Source of the DNA: Algoriphagus sp.
GTDB lineage: Bacteria; Bacteroidota; Bacteroidia; Cytophagales; Cyclobacteriaceae
Assembly: GCA_021298245.1 (NCBI GenBank)
Contig: JAJTDZ010000002.1
Location: 122,540 to 186,539, forward strand
DNA length: 64,000 nt
Direction: 5' to 3'
The notes below the pieces were generated by a model. It searched no databases, was not told where the DNA came from, and was given only the letters and a program-made list of their open reading frames with translations. Below, one piece after another: positions 1,069 through 8,586 of this stretch. Positions within the stretch are counted from its first letter, which is position 1, and every line of letters starts with the position of its first letter. The position numbers were made by a program, and so were the translations under genes.

Positions 1069-2322
1069 TTAAAGTCCGAATTCTTTCTTTACCCGCTCTA
1101 CGTAATCCAACTTCTCCCAGGTAAATAGCTCCACCTTCTTGGTAATCGCTGGGCGGTACGGGGAAGTGAAGGTTTTCTCTACCACCACGCTCTCTCTACC
1201 CATGTGACCATATGCCGCAGTCTCTAGGTAGATCGGCGTACGCAACTTCAAGCGCTGCTCGATGGCATAGGGACGCATGTCGAAGATGCCCTCCACCTTT
1301 TTGGCAATCTCTCCATCACTCATGTTCACCTTGGCCGTGCCGTAGGTATTGATGTAGATACCCATCGGCTTGGCTACACCAATCGCATAGGATACCTGCA
1401 CCAAGATCTCGTCAGCCACTCCCGCTGCCACCATGTTCTTGGCAATGTGACGGGTAGCGTATGCTGCGGAGCGGTCTACTTTCGAAGGATCTTTGCCAGA
1501 GAAGGCTCCTCCTCCGTGAGCACCCTTGCCCCCGTAGGTGTCTACGATGATCTTTCTTCCGGTAAGTCCAGTGTCTCCGTGTGGTCCACCGATCACAAAC
1601 TTGCCCGTTGGGTTGATGTGGTAGGTGATCTGGTCCGTGAATAATTTTTGTAGCGAAGGCTTCAACTTGGCCTTCACACGTGGAATCAGGATGTTGATGA
1701 TATCCGCTTTGATTTTGGCAAGCATTGTGGCTTCGGTATCAAAGTCGTCGTGCTGGGTAGATACCACAATCGCATCGATGCGTTGAGGCACGTTGTCGTC
1801 GGAGTATTCGATGGTCACCTGAGACTTGGAGTCAGGACGTAGGTAAGGCATGTCCTTGTTCTCTCTACGCAATTCCGCAAGTTCCAAAAGAATGCGGTGC
1901 GAGAGGTCCAATGCCAAAGGCATGTAGTTTTCTGTTTCGTTGGTGGCATAGCCAAACATCATTCCTTGGTCGCCTGCACCCTGCTCTTCTGGGTTCTTGC
2001 GTTCTACACCTTGGTTGATGTCCGCAGATTGCTCATGGATAGCAGAAAGCACCCCGCAGGAGTTGCCTTCAAACATGTATTCACTTTTGGTATAACCAAT
2101 CTTGTTGATCACCTCGCGGGCAATCTTTTGCACATCTAAGTACACTTCGGATTTTACCTCTCCAGCAAGGACTACCTGTCCGGTAGTTACCAGCGTTTCG
2201 CAGGCTACCTTGGAGTTGGGATCAAAAGCCAAAAAGTTGTCAATCAATGCGTCCGAAATCTGGTCCGCAATTTTATCTGGGTGACCCTCAGATACAGATT
2301 CTGAGGTAAATAGGTAAGGCAT
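1069..2322 (-). CDS. metK: S-adenosylmethionine synthetase
   Basis: [68 protein letters not shown] signatures; the start chosen is the internal Met (the longer ORF begins at 2355). Confidence 0.97.
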
Positions 2323-2386: not shown

Positions 2387-2406
2387 CAGTAAGGGGTTAC
2401 TTACTG
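2387..2406 (-). other. Small hairpin (cagtaag-gggtta-cttactg) upstream of metK
   Basis: Perfect 7-bp inverted repeat with a 6-nt loop. Confidence 0.35.
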
Positions 2407-2447
2407 AGCAGCAGCGATTCCTTTTTTTATGCTCACAAAGAAGGAAA

Positions 2448-2470
2448 GTCTGCCTGCGGTAGGTAGGCTC
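2448..2470. repeat. Degenerate copy of the metK-downstream palindromic repeat (tctgcctgcggtaggtaggc)
   Basis: Visual similarity to the 1001-1050 units. Confidence 0.4.
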
Positions 2471-2535
2471 TACTACTTTACATGAGTACTTTTTTTACTC
2501 AAAAATGGGTAAAGAAAAAAGAAGTGGACATCTCA

Positions 2536-2784
2536 TTAAATGCCATCTTTTAAAAGAAAAAATGCTATAAAAAGTATTCCTCCAATTACCGCCCCAGCTT
2601 TCTTTTTGAGATACTCCTGCTGCAAATCGATCTTTTTATAGAGATAAAAAATATAGCCCTGTACAAAAAGTCCAAAGGTAAAAATGAGGAGTGCAATGGG
2701 GATAGATTTGAAAAAGAACCCCGCAAAAGCAACAGCTAGGGCAAGGAATATTGAATAAGTTTCCCACTTTTTTATTGTGTCCAT
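2536..2784 (-). CDS. Small multi-TM hypothetical membrane protein (82 aa)
   Basis: About three hydrophobic segments; begins 5 nt after the stop of the upstream lipoprotein gene on the same strand. Confidence 0.7.
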   Translation of the reverse strand: MDTIKKWETYSIFLALAVAFAGFFFKSIPIALLIFTFGLFVQGYIFYLYKKIDLQQEYLKKKAGAVIGGILFIAFFLLKDGI

Positions 2785-2789
2785 GTTCT

Positions 2790-3428
2790 TTAATTTTCGT
2801 ATTTTTTACAAGTCTTATAAGATTTTGTAGCATCATCTATACATACCAATTCAGATAAATAGACAAATCCTCCACAAGCCAATGCGCCTAGCAGAGTAGG
2901 AGTCAATAAGCCACAAGCGGCTGAAGCTACTAGTGCCGCATTCCTACAGGTTTCAATACCGGTATCAAATTCCTCTTCACAAGCTCCATAAATTCTCAAA
3001 TTTGCTGAATGAACGCTTCTTTTTTGCACTAACTCAGAAATATTTTCTGCTAGTAGCATATCAAGTTCTTCTCGATTCGCTACAAGGAGTTGAGGATATT
3101 TTTCCCTTAATTTTTGACCTAAAATCACCATTTCAAGTAAAGGATGTTCGATTTTAAGGTTAGACCCACTAAGTGTATACCGATCTTTTTCCACCTCTGC
3201 AAAAGAAGAAGCTGATATCACTCGCTGCTGAATTTTTTCAAAATCTTCTTTGGAAATCCTTGAAGCATTCGCCTGGCTCTTTTGTAAGGAATTCATAAAC
3301 TCAATGAATAAGGGGTCTTCAGGTAGCTGATCAACCAAAAGTTCTGCCTGCTTGGGTTGTGGATCTTCCGCAACGCAGCCCAAAAAAAGGCAGGAAAAAG
3401 ACACAAAAAAAAGGGATTTCATTTTCAT
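2790..3428 (-). CDS. Lipoprotein with C-terminal six-Cys halocin-C8-like domain (hypothetical)
   Basis: Signal peptide with lipobox (SCLFLGC); C-terminus CEEEFDTGIETCRNAALVASAACGLLTPTLLGALACGGFVYLSELVCIDDATKSYKTC. Confidence 0.75.
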   Translation of the reverse strand: MKMKSLFFVSFSCLFLGCVAEDPQPKQAELLVDQLPEDPLFIEFMNSLQKSQANASRISKEDFEKIQQRVISASSFAEVEKDRYTLSGSNLKIEHPLLEMVILGQKLREKYPQLLVANREELDMLLAENISELVQKRSVHSANLRIYGACEEEFDTGIETCRNAALVASAACGLLTPTLLGALACGGFVYLSELVCIDDATKSYKTCKKYEN

Positions 3429-3597
3429 GGATTAAAAAGTGTTTAGAATTAAAAAATTATTTATACTAATTTATAGATTAAATTAAATTTATCAAATATT
3501 TATAGATATTTTTTTAATTAAACTACTACAAAAATTAATCACCCCAGATTAAATTTTAAAAAGCAGCAGTTTTGAATGAAGAAGCCTTTGCCTTCAA

Positions 3598-3629
3598 CCA
3601 AAAAAAATCCCCTACAAATGGTAGGGGAT
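3598..3629 (-). terminator. Rho-independent terminator downstream of htpG
   Basis: atcccctac-aaatg-gtaggggat 9-bp stem followed (minus strand) by a T tract. Confidence 0.75.
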
Positions 3630-3654
3630 AGCGTGCAATTTTGGAGTTGCAAAA

Positions 3655-3722: not shown

Positions 3723-5609
3723 TTAAATCATTTCCACGCTGCGCTTCACGAAGGCAGTCAGGTCCTTGCCTGTCAGCAAGCCCTGAGACAATAAAGCCAG
3801 ATCAAAAGCCTGCTTGGCCAACTTCACTTGCTCCTCTTCTCCTTCCGCTTTCAAAATTTTATCCACCAAGGGGTGATTGCCGTTGATGGCTACCTTATAG
3901 CTATCCGGCAAACTACCGTAGAAACTCATCGGCCCCCCACCCGTTTGTGCCATTTCCTTCATTCGGCGCATCCACTCTTCCATGGTGATAGTCACTGGGA
4001 ATTCCTCTGGGCTAAGGCCCTCGATCTCCACGGTATAGGTCTTATTTTGAATGGCTTTTTCAAAAAGCTCTTTCACCGATTTGCTTTGATCTTCTGTCAA
4101 TAAATTGGCATAAGCTGCTTCTTTTTGAATCAATTTTTCAATCACATCCGCATCCACCCGCTTCAGTTGGGTTTTTTCCAACTTCGTTTCCACATGCTGG
4201 ATGAAATGGTTGTCAATGGGGGAGTCCATGACCAAGACATCGTATTCTTTTTTCAAAGCAGAATCGATAAAGCTGTCTTGTTTTTTGACATCGCTGGCAT
4301 AGAGGTAAATCACTTGCTCGTTTTTATCCGTTTGCGTAGCAGCTACCTTTTCTCGGTACTCGTCTAAAGTGTAATATTCGTCCTTGGTGTTTTTGAGAAG
4401 GGTAAACTCTTTGCCCTTTTCATAAAACTTCTCCTCGGAGATCATGCCATACTTCACAAAAAGACCGATGTCATTCCACTTTTCTTCGTAGACTTTTCTG
4501 TCTTTCTTGAAGAGCTCTGAAAGTTTGTCAGCAACCTTTTTGGTGATGTAATTGTTGATTTTCTTCACGTTGCCATCCGCCTGCAAGAAACTTCTCGACA
4601 CGTTGAGCGGAATATCTGGAGAGTCAATCACCCCGTGTAGGAGCATTAAAAACTCTGGAACTATGTCTTTAACTTCATCGGTAATGAAGACTTGACGACT
4701 AAATAATTTGATTTTATTTCGCTGCAACTCAAAATCATTTTTGAGTTTGGGAAAATACAAGACTCCCGTCAAATTGAAAGGATAATCTACATTGAGGTGA
4801 ATCCAAAACAAGGGATCTTCGCCCATGGGATATAGACTCTTGTAAAAAGCCAAATAGTCTTCGTCTTGAAGGTCATTAGGAGATTTGGTCCAAATGGGTG
4901 AAGTGGTATTGATGATGTTGTCCACCTCAATGGATTTCCACTTCTTCTCCCCTTTGTCATCTACTCCATCCTCTACGGATTGGGATTTTGTTCCAAATTT
5001 GATAGGAACGGGCAAAAACTTGCAGTATTTATCCAAGATCCCCTGCAGCTTCCAGTTGTCTAAAAACTCTTCGGAGTCCTCATTGATGAAAAGGATGATT
5101 TCTGTCCCGCGACTTTTTCTTTTGCCTTTTTTAATTTCAAATTCTGTACTGCCGTCACAGGTCCAAATGGCCGGCTCAGCCCCTTCTTGGTAGGATAGCG
5201 TATGGATCTCCACATTCTTGGCAACCATGAAGGCAGAGTAGAATCCTAAACCAAATTTTCCAATGATTTCATTGGCATCCTTGGCATCCTTAAATTTTTC
5301 TACAAATTCGGTTGCCCCAGAAAATGCAATTTGGTTGATGTACTTTTTGATTTCCTCGGCTGTCATACCAAGGCCCTTGTCCGAAATGGTGATGGTTTTC
5401 TTCTTCTCATCAAAAGAAACTTCCACGGTAAGGTCTCCAAGCTCTCCAGCATACTGACCTAATGTCGCCAGCCTCTTGATTTTTTGGGTAGCATCAACTG
5501 CATTGGAAACGAGCTCTCTGAGGAAAATCTCATGGTCGGAATAGAGAAATTTTTTAATTATTGGGAAAATGTTCTCGGTATGAATCGAGATGGTGCCTTT
5601 TTCCTGCAT
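3723..5609 (-). CDS. htpG: Molecular chaperone HtpG (Hsp90)
   Basis: MQEKGTISIHTENIFPIIKKFLYSDHEIFLRELVSNAVDA..., DKGLGMT, GKFGLGFYSAFMV motifs. Confidence 0.98.
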   Translation of the reverse strand: MQEKGTISIHTENIFPIIKKFLYSDHEIFLRELVSNAVDATQKIKRLATLGQYAGELGDLTVEVSFDEKKKTITISDKGLGMTAEEIKKYINQIAFSGATEFVEKFKDAKDANEIIGKFGLGFYSAFMVAKNVEIHTLSYQEGAEPAIWTCDGSTEFEIKKGKRKSRGTEIILFINEDSEEFLDNWKLQGILDKYCKFLPVPIKFGTKSQSVEDGVDDKGEKKWKSIEVDNIINTTSPIWTKSPNDLQDEDYLAFYKSLYPMGEDPLFWIHLNVDYPFNLTGVLYFPKLKNDFELQRNKIKLFSRQVFITDEVKDIVPEFLMLLHGVIDSPDIPLNVSRSFLQADGNVKKINNYITKKVADKLSELFKKDRKVYEEKWNDIGLFVKYGMISEEKFYEKGKEFTLLKNTKDEYYTLDEYREKVAATQTDKNEQVIYLYASDVKKQDSFIDSALKKEYDVLVMDSPIDNHFIQHVETKLEKTQLKRVDADVIEKLIQKEAAYANLLTEDQSKSVKELFEKAIQNKTYTVEIEGLSPEEFPVTITMEEWMRRMKEMAQTGGGPMSFYGSLPDSYKVAINGNHPLVDKILKAEGEEEQVKLAKQAFDLALLSQGLLTGKDLTAFVKRSVEMI

Positions 5610-6704: not shown

Positions 6705-7328
6705 TTATTCTTTCTTGGGGAGGGTTCCAAAAACATAATCCCAAAGAGGAGAACTTACTCCATAAGAAGTAGATGGATCTTTGTAATGGTGAATGGCGTG
6801 ATTGACCCAAAGGACTTTGAAAAAATTCTTGGGAGGCTGGTAGGCGTGCACCACGTAATGAACACCCAAGTAAAGGGAATAGCCTAGCAAAAATCCTGGT
6901 AGAAAATACAGCGCATAATCCCCCATCACTAAATGAAACACCAAGTAGAAAATTGCCGCATAGGCAGCACTGACAAATGGCGGCATGGCCAATCTATCTT
7001 TATCTTTGGGATAATCGTGATGTACTCCATGCATGCTGTACTGCACCTTGTCCTTGAGCGGCGTATCTGGCTCCATATGAAACAAGTGTTTGTGCATTAA
7101 GTATTCCACAAAAGTAAAGGCAAAAAGGCCTAAAAAAACGAAGACAAAGCCCAACCAAAGTGGAATGCTGGTAGTGAGGGCATAATAAAACGAAACAGAG
7201 GAAATCCCTAAAAATAAGGTGATAGGAACTAAAATGTGGGTTCTGGAAATTCGCTCCAAAATAGGGTTAGAAAACATCTTGGCAGAACCGAAATTGTCAG
7301 GCCGGTCTAATCTCCCAATCTTTTTCAT
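6705..7328 (-). CDS. Fatty acid hydroxylase superfamily protein (FA2H/Scs7-like)
   Basis: Histidine clusters HKHLFH, HGVHHDYPKDKDRLAMPP, HYVVH, NHAIHHYKDPSTSYGVSSPLWDYVFGT. Confidence 0.85.
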   Translation of the reverse strand: MKKIGRLDRPDNFGSAKMFSNPILERISRTHILVPITLFLGISSVSFYYALTTSIPLWLGFVFVFLGLFAFTFVEYLMHKHLFHMEPDTPLKDKVQYSMHGVHHDYPKDKDRLAMPPFVSAAYAAIFYLVFHLVMGDYALYFLPGFLLGYSLYLGVHYVVHAYQPPKNFFKVLWVNHAIHHYKDPSTSYGVSSPLWDYVFGTLPKKE

Positions 7329-7446
7329 GACGACAATAAATTAGGCTTGAAGGTAAAGGTGTTGTTTTTGAATTTAAACTAGACTACAAAAATAAGGGTT
7401 TCAATTTTCAGCTCAATTTTTTTGTTCCTGATTGAAATCATGTTTT

Positions 7447-8586
7447 TTATTGAATTTTCAACATTTTTTCGAGAGTTCTTTCGTAGTAGCTCACGTACTT
7501 AGGCAGGACTTGATCGATATCAAATTCTTTTGCTCTTGCAAGAGCTCTTTCCTTGAATCCTGGCAAGCGAGATTCGTCTAAAATGCTTAAGGCTTTTTCG
7601 GTCATGTCCTCTACATCACCAACCTCACATACAAACCCCGTAACCCCATCGAGATTGAGTTCGGGAATGCCTCCTGCATTGGAGGATAATACAGGTACTT
7701 CACAAGCCATAGCCTCCAAGGCAGCAAGTCCAAAGCTTTCTTTTTCGGAAGGCATGACAAAGAGATCTGCTACAGAAAGAACTTCCTCTACCGCTTCCAA
7801 TTTGCCTAAAAATCTTATGTCCTCGCAGGTGCCTAAAGTTCGGCAAAGCCTTTCCATTCGGTCCCTTTCCGGTCCATCTCCTACCAATAGCAACTTGGCG
7901 GGGATTTGCTTCCGGATATTGTAAAATACCTGAATCACATCCTCTACCCGTTTTACTTTTCGAAAATTAGAGGTGTGCACCAAAAGCTTTTCTCCGTTGG
8001 GACAAATGGCAAATTTAAAATGATCCTTTCGCTGTTTTTTAAATCGCTCCAAATCAATAAAGTTAGGGATCACCTCTATTTCCTGCTGAATATCAAAGTA
8101 TTCGTAGGTTTCTTTTCTCAAATCCTCCGAAACGGCCGTTACCCCATCGGATTGATTGATGGAAAAGGTCACCACGGGTTCATAACTGGGATCTTTCCCC
8201 ACCAAAGTAATGTCTGTCCCATGCAGGGTCGTGACTACCGGAATGGAAATTCCATGCGTTTTGAGAATTTGCTTGGCCAAATATGCAGAAGAAGCATGGG
8301 GAATGGCATAATGAACGTGGAGTAAATCCAGCCCTTCGTACTTTACCACACTGACCATTTTACTGGCCAAGGCCAATTCATATGGAGCAAACTCAAATAA
8401 GGGATAGCTCTTGATGTCTACCTCATGGTAGAAAAGATTCTCACTAAAAAAATCCAAGCGCATGGGTTGCTTGTAGGTAATAAAGTGCACTTCATGCCCT
8501 ACTTTGGCCAATCCTTTTCCTAATTCTGTGGCTACCACCCCACTACCTCCAAACGTAGGATAACATACTATTCCAATTTTCATCAC
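7447..8586 (-). CDS. bshA: N-acetyl-alpha-D-glucosaminyl L-malate synthase BshA (GT4 family)
   Basis: MKIGIVCYPTFGGSGVVATELGKGLAKVGHEVHFITYKQP; LHVHYAIPHASSAYLA; EKESFGLAALEAMACEVPV. Confidence 0.93.
   Translation of the reverse strand: MMKIGIVCYPTFGGSGVVATELGKGLAKVGHEVHFITYKQPMRLDFFSENLFYHEVDIKSYPLFEFAPYELALASKMVSVVKYEGLDLLHVHYAIPHASSAYLAKQILKTHGISIPVVTTLHGTDITLVGKDPSYEPVVTFSINQSDGVTAVSEDLRKETYEYFDIQQEIEVIPNFIDLERFKKQRKDHFKFAICPNGEKLLVHTSNFRKVKRVEDVIQVFYNIRKQIPAKLLLVGDGPERDRMERLCRTLGTCEDIRFLGKLEAVEEVLSVADLFVMPSEKESFGLAALEAMACEVPVLSSNAGGIPELNLDGVTGFVCEVGDVEDMTEKALSILDESRLPGFKERALARAKEFDIDQVLPKYVSYYERTLEKMLKIQ

Follow-up and report, generated by a model that had tools for sequence, protein, structure and literature searches.

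BcpT, a lipoprotein protoxin of Bacteroidales (Bacteroidota) with an SpII signal, is composed of an N-terminal pro/chaperone part and an active C-terminal part, and the gene for its immunity protein BcpI, a small lipoprotein, lies directly downstream (PMC9308784, PMC8406203). Fab1 has a related organization, with a pro-domain, an active C-terminal fragment and a downstream immunity gene for RFab1; orphan rfab1 genes exist, and Fab1 is cut after an Arg residue by the C11 protease fragipain (PMC9308784, PMC8406203). The Caulobacter proteins CdzC and CdzD are two small hydrophobic (Gly-zipper) killers that reach the cell surface by type I secretion and kill on contact in a pore-like manner, with CdzI as a small inner-membrane immunity protein (PMC5380434). 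In myxobacteria, polymorphic SitA lipoproteins carry unrelated C-terminal toxin domains, which are nucleases and are delivered through TraA outer-membrane exchange, and each is followed by a cognate SitI immunity gene within repeated accessory units (PMC5562445). Halocin C8 is a C-terminal, Cys-rich hydrophobic peptide, possibly with a Cys-bridged hairpin core, carried on a secreted precursor of ∼300 aa.

The cassette described here is found in a 64-kb stretch of Algoriphagus DNA (the window) from a source genome of 2.48 Mb that is 83% complete. It is composed of a gene for a lipoprotein (LP) followed by a gene for a small membrane protein (TM), an order that resembles that of BcpT and BcpI (Table 1). 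By analogy with the BcpT, Fab1, Cdz and SitA systems, we read LP and TM as a polymorphic, surface-tethered and membrane-active bacteriocin with its inner-membrane immunity protein, and give this reading a probability of about 60%. LP has no sequence relation to BcpT or Fab1. These toxins are ∼50 kDa in size with C-terminal fragments of ∼28 kDa or 300 residues, whereas LP has 212 residues, a Cys hairpin of ∼60 aa and a three-TM partner in place of a small lipoprotein. An earlier, sequence-only reading of this DNA had placed the TM start 5 nt downstream of LP on the same strand and described the product as an 82-aa protein with about three TM segments. The gap from the LP stop to the TM start codon is indeed exactly 5 nt, and both the AlphaFold2 model and hydropathy agree with the predicted membrane segments.

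Table 1. Features of the LP/TM cassette and its surroundings (positions in the window)
Feature	Position	Strand	Basis or remark
htpG, left anchor of the slot	3723–5609	−	its 3'-end fragments separate modules in relatives
metK, right-hand slot anchor in the lineage of the window	1069–2322	−	Rrf2 gene there in most relatives
Accessory block, edges approximate	2387–3650		alignment against empty-slot relatives L078 and L084
AT-rich upstream region, presumed promoter/leader	3429–3560		13.6% GC
LP, candidate surface-tethered bacteriocin precursor	2790–3428	−	212-aa ORF; homologs within Algoriphagus and in further genera of its family
LP signal peptide, lipobox LFLGC, lipidated Cys18	3375–3428	−	from sequence
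Acidic residues VAEDP after the lipidated Cys	3360–3374	−	resemble Bacteroidota surface-export signal
LP mature N-terminal region, residues 19–144, candidate pro/linker domain, fast-diverging	2997–3374	−	dN, identity
Arg145, candidate processing site, five residues ahead of the first domain Cys	2994–2996	−	position common to homologs
Six-Cys hydrophobic helical hairpin, LP residues 150–207	2808–2981	−	AlphaFold2 and Cys spacing
TM, 82 aa, three-helix membrane protein, candidate immunity protein	2536–2784	−	AlphaFold2; pairing with LP

LP is an SpII-type lipoprotein in which Cys18 lies in the context CVAEDP. Acidic residues also follow the lipidated Cys of the homologs (CDYNE, CDFNDE, CELGNTE and CYEE). 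Carboxylate residues at this place suggest surface export according to the rule used in PMC9308784, and the combination of an SpII precursor with such residues is one that LP and its homologs share with the BcpT/Fab1 mode. Judged by this signal, LP is probably displayed on the cell surface. There is no dedicated export or uptake gene near the cassette, and the accessory block holds no type I secretion genes of the CdzCD kind; the two small Cdz peptides depend on type I secretion, whereas the modules at this locus are Sec/SpII lipoproteins with one effector each.

The C-terminus of LP contains six cysteine residues in the arrangement C-x10-C-x10-C-x12-C-x10-C-x10-C. This symmetrical spacing, which the sequence-only reading had counted correctly, is unique in the window, where a search of all six frames for C-x10-C-x10-C-x(8-16)-C-x10-C-x10-C returns LP as the single match. 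Nine intact C-terminal domains were compared, taken from Algoriphagus and from further genera of its family; each has the six residues at identical spacing, and the pattern is therefore not a chance one. AlphaFold2, run with nine homologs, predicts two helices (residues 149–175 and 179–211; pLDDT ∼74–88) that meet at an invariant PT motif. The cysteines at positions 150, 161 and 172 and those at 185, 196 and 207 follow one another in 11-residue steps and are mirrored about the turn, a symmetry accounted for by an antiparallel hairpin, which would pair 172 with 185, 161 with 196 and 150 with 207. From the spacing and the predicted helices we infer a ladder of three disulfide rungs. The half of the hairpin near the turn is hydrophobic, with a tip GRAVY of +1.3 to +1.7 among nine homologs, and the open end is acidic. 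The TM model consists of three membrane-length helices (residues 2–24, 28–51 and 55–79) with which the hydropathy peaks agree.

Twin Cx9C and α-hairpinin folds offer a parallel in shape: their two helices run antiparallel and are joined by disulfides between regularly spaced cysteines. They have two rungs and another spacing, whereas LP would have three rungs, 11-residue steps and a hydrophobic tip. In one distant relative (L027), the motif C-x21-C-x14-C-x21-C is followed directly downstream by a different small membrane protein, and this C-terminus may form a two-rung version of the hairpin.

Neither LP nor TM matches a Pfam or NCBIfam family above cut-off, and no toxin family in these collections matches LP or the other slot lipoproteins scanned. 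A Gly-zipper is absent from the window LP. PDB chains searched by sequence and by profile gave nothing convincing, and fold searches with the LP and TM models against the PDB returned generic helical matches, with nothing at E ≤ 0.001. That LP thus matches no known toxin in sequence or fold counts against the bacteriocin reading. No plasmid homolog of LP was found. Conserved cysteines that could be catalytic or metal-binding, in a protein with no known family to argue otherwise, would also suit envelope housekeeping by a small lipoprotein that works with a membrane partner in redox chemistry, metal binding or assembly. We consider this improbable, since LP lacks a CxxC motif, its symmetric 11-residue spacing suits structural disulfides, and the gene is absent from ∼90% of congeners and often pseudogenised. 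No homolog proved to carry an unrelated housekeeping annotation.

The sequence-only reading had described the pair as a possible bacteriocin-like cassette with a halocin-C8-like lipoprotein. The shared CGLL...C..GFV..VC string is real, and direct BLAST between the peptides aligns 21 of 51 residues; the halocin C8 query was checked by its match to TIGR04449 and by its homologs on haloarchaeal plasmids. This family model (NCBIfam halocin_C8_dom) does not match LP at E ≤ 10, compared with 1.1e-16 for halocin C8 itself. Profile–profile alignment (HHalign) gives a probability of 9.7% with P 0.003, and scores as high were reached by 6 of 150 within-segment shuffles and by 0 of 150 free shuffles. Halocin C8 has 10 cysteines with a core at 8-residue steps, in contrast to the 6 at 11-residue steps in LP, and its Haloferax homolog has a Tat-type signal (RRSFVRR) where LP has an SpII lipobox. 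The string, the BLAST alignment, the P value and the free shuffles speak for membership in the halocin C8 family, and the family model, the HHalign probability, the within-segment shuffles, Cys count and spacing and the export signal speak against it. We reject membership as a claim; that LP is a true member cut from a longer precursor is highly improbable. What the two share is at most a design, with a hydrophobic, Cys-bridged peptide at the C-terminus of a larger secreted precursor, and LP may work like halocin C8. Of the outcomes that were to refute the sequence-only reading, a lack of profile similarity to halocin largely came about, whereas a lack of conserved pairing and homologs with a housekeeping role did not. 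The halocin label is dropped, and what stands is a pair that is bacteriocin-like in kind, as indicated by its conserved pairing, its accessory locus and the pairs found in the same slot of relatives.

Constraint differs sharply along the cassette. In comparison with G036, dN is ∼1.0 in the middle of LP but 0.19 in the C-terminal hairpin domain and 0.16 in the TM gene, so the hairpin and TM form a constrained unit; this contrast speaks for the bacteriocin reading, as does the hydrophobic tip of the hairpin. The mature N-terminal region of the window LP is 11–27% identical to that of its homologs. Very fast divergence of this kind is seen in surface antigens, and LP could accordingly be a non-toxic surface receptor, adhesin or variable-antigen signal protein whose biogenesis is aided by TM, with the slot serving surface variation in evasion of phages or predators. 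This explanation seems unlikely to us; the conserved part is the hydrophobic Cys hairpin together with TM, and not the mature N-terminal region.

An Arg residue is located 3–8 residues ahead of the first cysteine in all nine six-Cys LPs, and 1–5 residues ahead of it in several unrelated LP types. Proteolytic release at this Arg would suit its conserved position. No C11 clostripain-type protease (PF03415) is encoded in the source genome as assembled (83% complete), which leaves the proposed cleavage without an enzyme.

The accessory insertion suggested by the sequence-only reading is supported, because relatives with an empty slot bound a block that contains LP and TM only. The third codon positions of these genes are AT-rich (GC3 0.29 for LP and 0.35 for TM, versus 0.59 for metK and 0.52 for htpG). 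The region upstream of LP, rightly called very AT-rich in that reading, is about as GC-poor as the window gets over a length of 132 nt, with 0.02% of such stretches as low. No Rfam element was detected between positions 2300 and 3800.

Among 76 Algoriphagus genomes, eight have LP, and TM adjoins it in all of them, although TM is frameshifted in one (G002). Wherever the flank was read in this genus, the pair stands after htpG, and A. chordae is one species with an intact pair. A survey of co-occurrence had been proposed along with the original reading, and pairing is kept in every intact case (G000, G036, G095, G023, G065, G747 and G563); no LP without TM was found among the relatives examined. 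The two genes overlap in several relatives. Profile searches identify the same pair at other loci in other genera of the family (L020, L021 and, in part, L040), where LP is 23–28% identical overall to the window protein and has identical Cys spacing. Class-wide searches gave nothing convincing beyond the family. The class-level matches L043–L046 and several weak family-level matches within L028–L039 were judged to be chance, mostly in the lipoprotein signal region; the ORFs of L032 and L043–L045 were read and are unrelated proteins, and the rest were assessed by alignment range and frame length. At L022 and L023, the weak matches to the TM profile do not correspond to genes for small membrane proteins.

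Two further loci were recorded during these searches. In G066, a distant TM homolog stands alone after a serC-like gene, with no LP (L019:1468–1749). In G786, of another genus, an early in-frame stop interrupts a lipoprotein-like gene (L042:1501–2346) whose product would end with six cysteines at a different spacing (GSFDRCMDIAVNACSSDWQCAILCGLAFWQCAAETAIACYATK); the gene after it encodes a 66-aa membrane protein, and the two may be a further type of this system.

TM is intact beside LP genes broken by an early stop in the signal peptide (G068), a frameshift before Cys5 (G061) or insertion of a transposase gene (G789), and occurs without LP in G009; both genes are broken in G002. Other module types also leave orphan partners, namely a TM of the G097 type in G017 and an intact partner of the G005 type beside a decayed LP in G020. 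The asymmetry in decay of LP and TM amounts to four cases in which LP is the longer target and some of the genomes are MAGs. In these few cases, loss of LP with retention of TM is as self-protection predicts, and would be unexpected if TM were a helper in LP biogenesis. By position, TM appears to behave as in the BcpT/Fab1 mode, where the downstream partner is kept with the toxin and orphans occur. A partner kept after LP loss is also compatible with a self-acting pair, akin to a toxin–antitoxin or abortive-infection system on the producer's own envelope, in which TM would be the antidote; the two genes are accessory, patchily distributed and translationally coupled in some relatives. We regard such a system as improbable. 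LP leaves the cytoplasm, as indicated by its SpII signal and acidic export-type residues, and orphan antidotes in LP-free genomes better fit protection against neighbours. PADLOC gave no match above noise; its best match, CARF_HEPN (E 8e-4), covers the variable middle region of LP and was considered spurious.

The stretch after htpG was read in 66 genomes, 54 of which have a recognisable right anchor (the Rrf2 gene or metK). Slot length in these 54 is ≤300 bp in 17, 300–600 bp in 7 and >600 bp in 30, and the interval is empty in many Algoriphagus genomes. In one recurrent kind of filling, unrelated lipoproteins with a hydrophobic or Cys-containing C-terminus each have a membrane protein or other adjacent partner of their own: Gly-zipper LPs with a 69- or 71-aa TM (G060 and G010, the Gly-zipper match in the latter being weak at E 0.008), a Cys-rich LP with a CPBP/Rce1-like protease of PF02517 (G025, G074 and G090; two of these were scanned, with E 7e-8 and 3e-8), an LP of 259 aa with a 59-aa TM (G070 and G072), a 186-aa ORF with a 56-aa TM (G097) and an LP ending in WGCWGSIAGPAGAVILG... 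with a 131-aa partner (G005). The Gly-zipper LPs in the slot of LP recall the Cdz killers. CPBP proteins have repeatedly been tied to bacteriocin immunity, although not always, since SilX was not (PMC9298176). Their presence in the place of TM in slot-mates fits a role of TM in membrane protection. Both the Gly-zipper and the CPBP-partnered modules fit bacteriocin biology and speak against a locus for surface receptors or antigens. With different toxin/immunity-like pairs at one spot, the slot seems to be a swap-in site for weapons, and this variety in relatives is the strongest evidence for the bacteriocin reading. Searches of open-access full text turned up neither an htpG-linked slot nor a six-Cys LP/TM cassette.

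A second kind of filling is composed of a secreted peptide of 60–90 aa, often Cys-containing, and a lipoprotein of 350–400 aa (L069–L077, L089, L094, L095, L098–L100, L104, L110, L111, L123 and L125). Many of these modules have the same leader as the LP/TM module. One of the two large lipoproteins scanned is a 6-bladed propeller of PF17170 and the other has no significant match. Modules pairing a peptide with a propeller lipoprotein count against the weapon reading, as they do not evidently have an antibacterial role, and they are a point in favour of the surface-variation explanation, as are the poly-G tracts just upstream of several modules. In A. antarcticus, an extra module between two htpG copies (L015:953–3282) encodes proteins of 383 and 393 aa, the latter peptidase-like, indicating that the slot also takes non-lipoprotein cargo.

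Modules of different type are alike at their 5' ends. DNA identity between them is ∼80% from −300 to +60, a span that includes the leader and the signal peptide up to codon 20, and falls to ∼40% beyond; between the two six-Cys modules compared, similarity extends further past +60. This 5' part is shared at one locus by five or more types of C-terminus, each with a partner of its own, an organization like that of SitA. No Pfam or NCBIfam toxin domain was recognised in the slot lipoproteins scanned, and SitA C-termini are nucleases, whereas the slot lipoproteins would carry hydrophobic hairpins with membrane partners. A leader motif, TTTAGTTCAAGTTCAANNCG, precedes the cassette in most relatives but not in the window, with 18 matches in 15 of 76 genomes versus 1 for the reversed control; the leader motif TTTAGTTCAAGTTCAA of relatives is not present in the window copy. 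For nine further genomes with a leader match, all of the longer regions fetched hold modules downstream of htpG. A run of ∼5–10 G residues lies directly before the shared leader motif TATGTTTAGTTCAAGTTCAA upstream of LP in L004, L005, L007 and L008 and varies in length between genomes. Such length differences could allow phase variation of module expression.

Extra htpG fragments occur at 11 loci, and 3'-end fragments recur downstream of the cassette in L013, L014 and L015. Fragments of this kind lie between modules at L013:5459–5947 and 7167–7652, L015:640–7037, L070, L071, L077, L090, L095 and L116; they sometimes include the following leader, over ∼490 bp at 89% identity. The arrangement looks as if modules were added via recombination anchored in htpG, with no integrase in sight. 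At least seven changes in the presence of the six-Cys module are required on the htpG tree, which is weakly resolved because it is based on 258 bp. Near-identical htpG neighbours differ in presence of this module (L009 versus L078).

The bacteriocin reading can be put as a sequence of steps. LP would leave the cytoplasm by the Sec pathway, receive its lipid and probably be displayed at the cell surface, where its last ∼60 residues, as a disulfide-laddered hydrophobic helical hairpin, would be the active part. The hairpin may act on contact while tethered, or after being freed by cleavage at the conserved Arg, and would then enter the inner membrane of a competitor and permeabilise it. TM, in the inner membrane of the producer, would block the hairpin there. 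Recombination in the htpG 3' end, the leader and the signal-peptide region would swap one lipoprotein/immunity pair for another. The broader proposal, on which we are evenly divided, is of a polymorphic Algoriphagus weapon locus in which each lipoprotein bacteriocin is a single effector, built on a disulfide-laddered or a Gly-zipper hairpin, and has its own inner-membrane immunity protein; modules would be exchanged at one slot via these anchors and without an integrase.

Bacteroidota bacteriocins beyond those of the gut Bacteroidales are little charted. If the bacteriocin reading is correct, the cassette would represent a compact surface system with one effector and one immunity protein, and a new, disulfide-hairpin type of effector. 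It would also offer a clear example of cassettes exchanged, as it seems, without an integrase, and the site after htpG would provide a fixed address at which new effector/immunity pairs could be read in any Algoriphagus genome.
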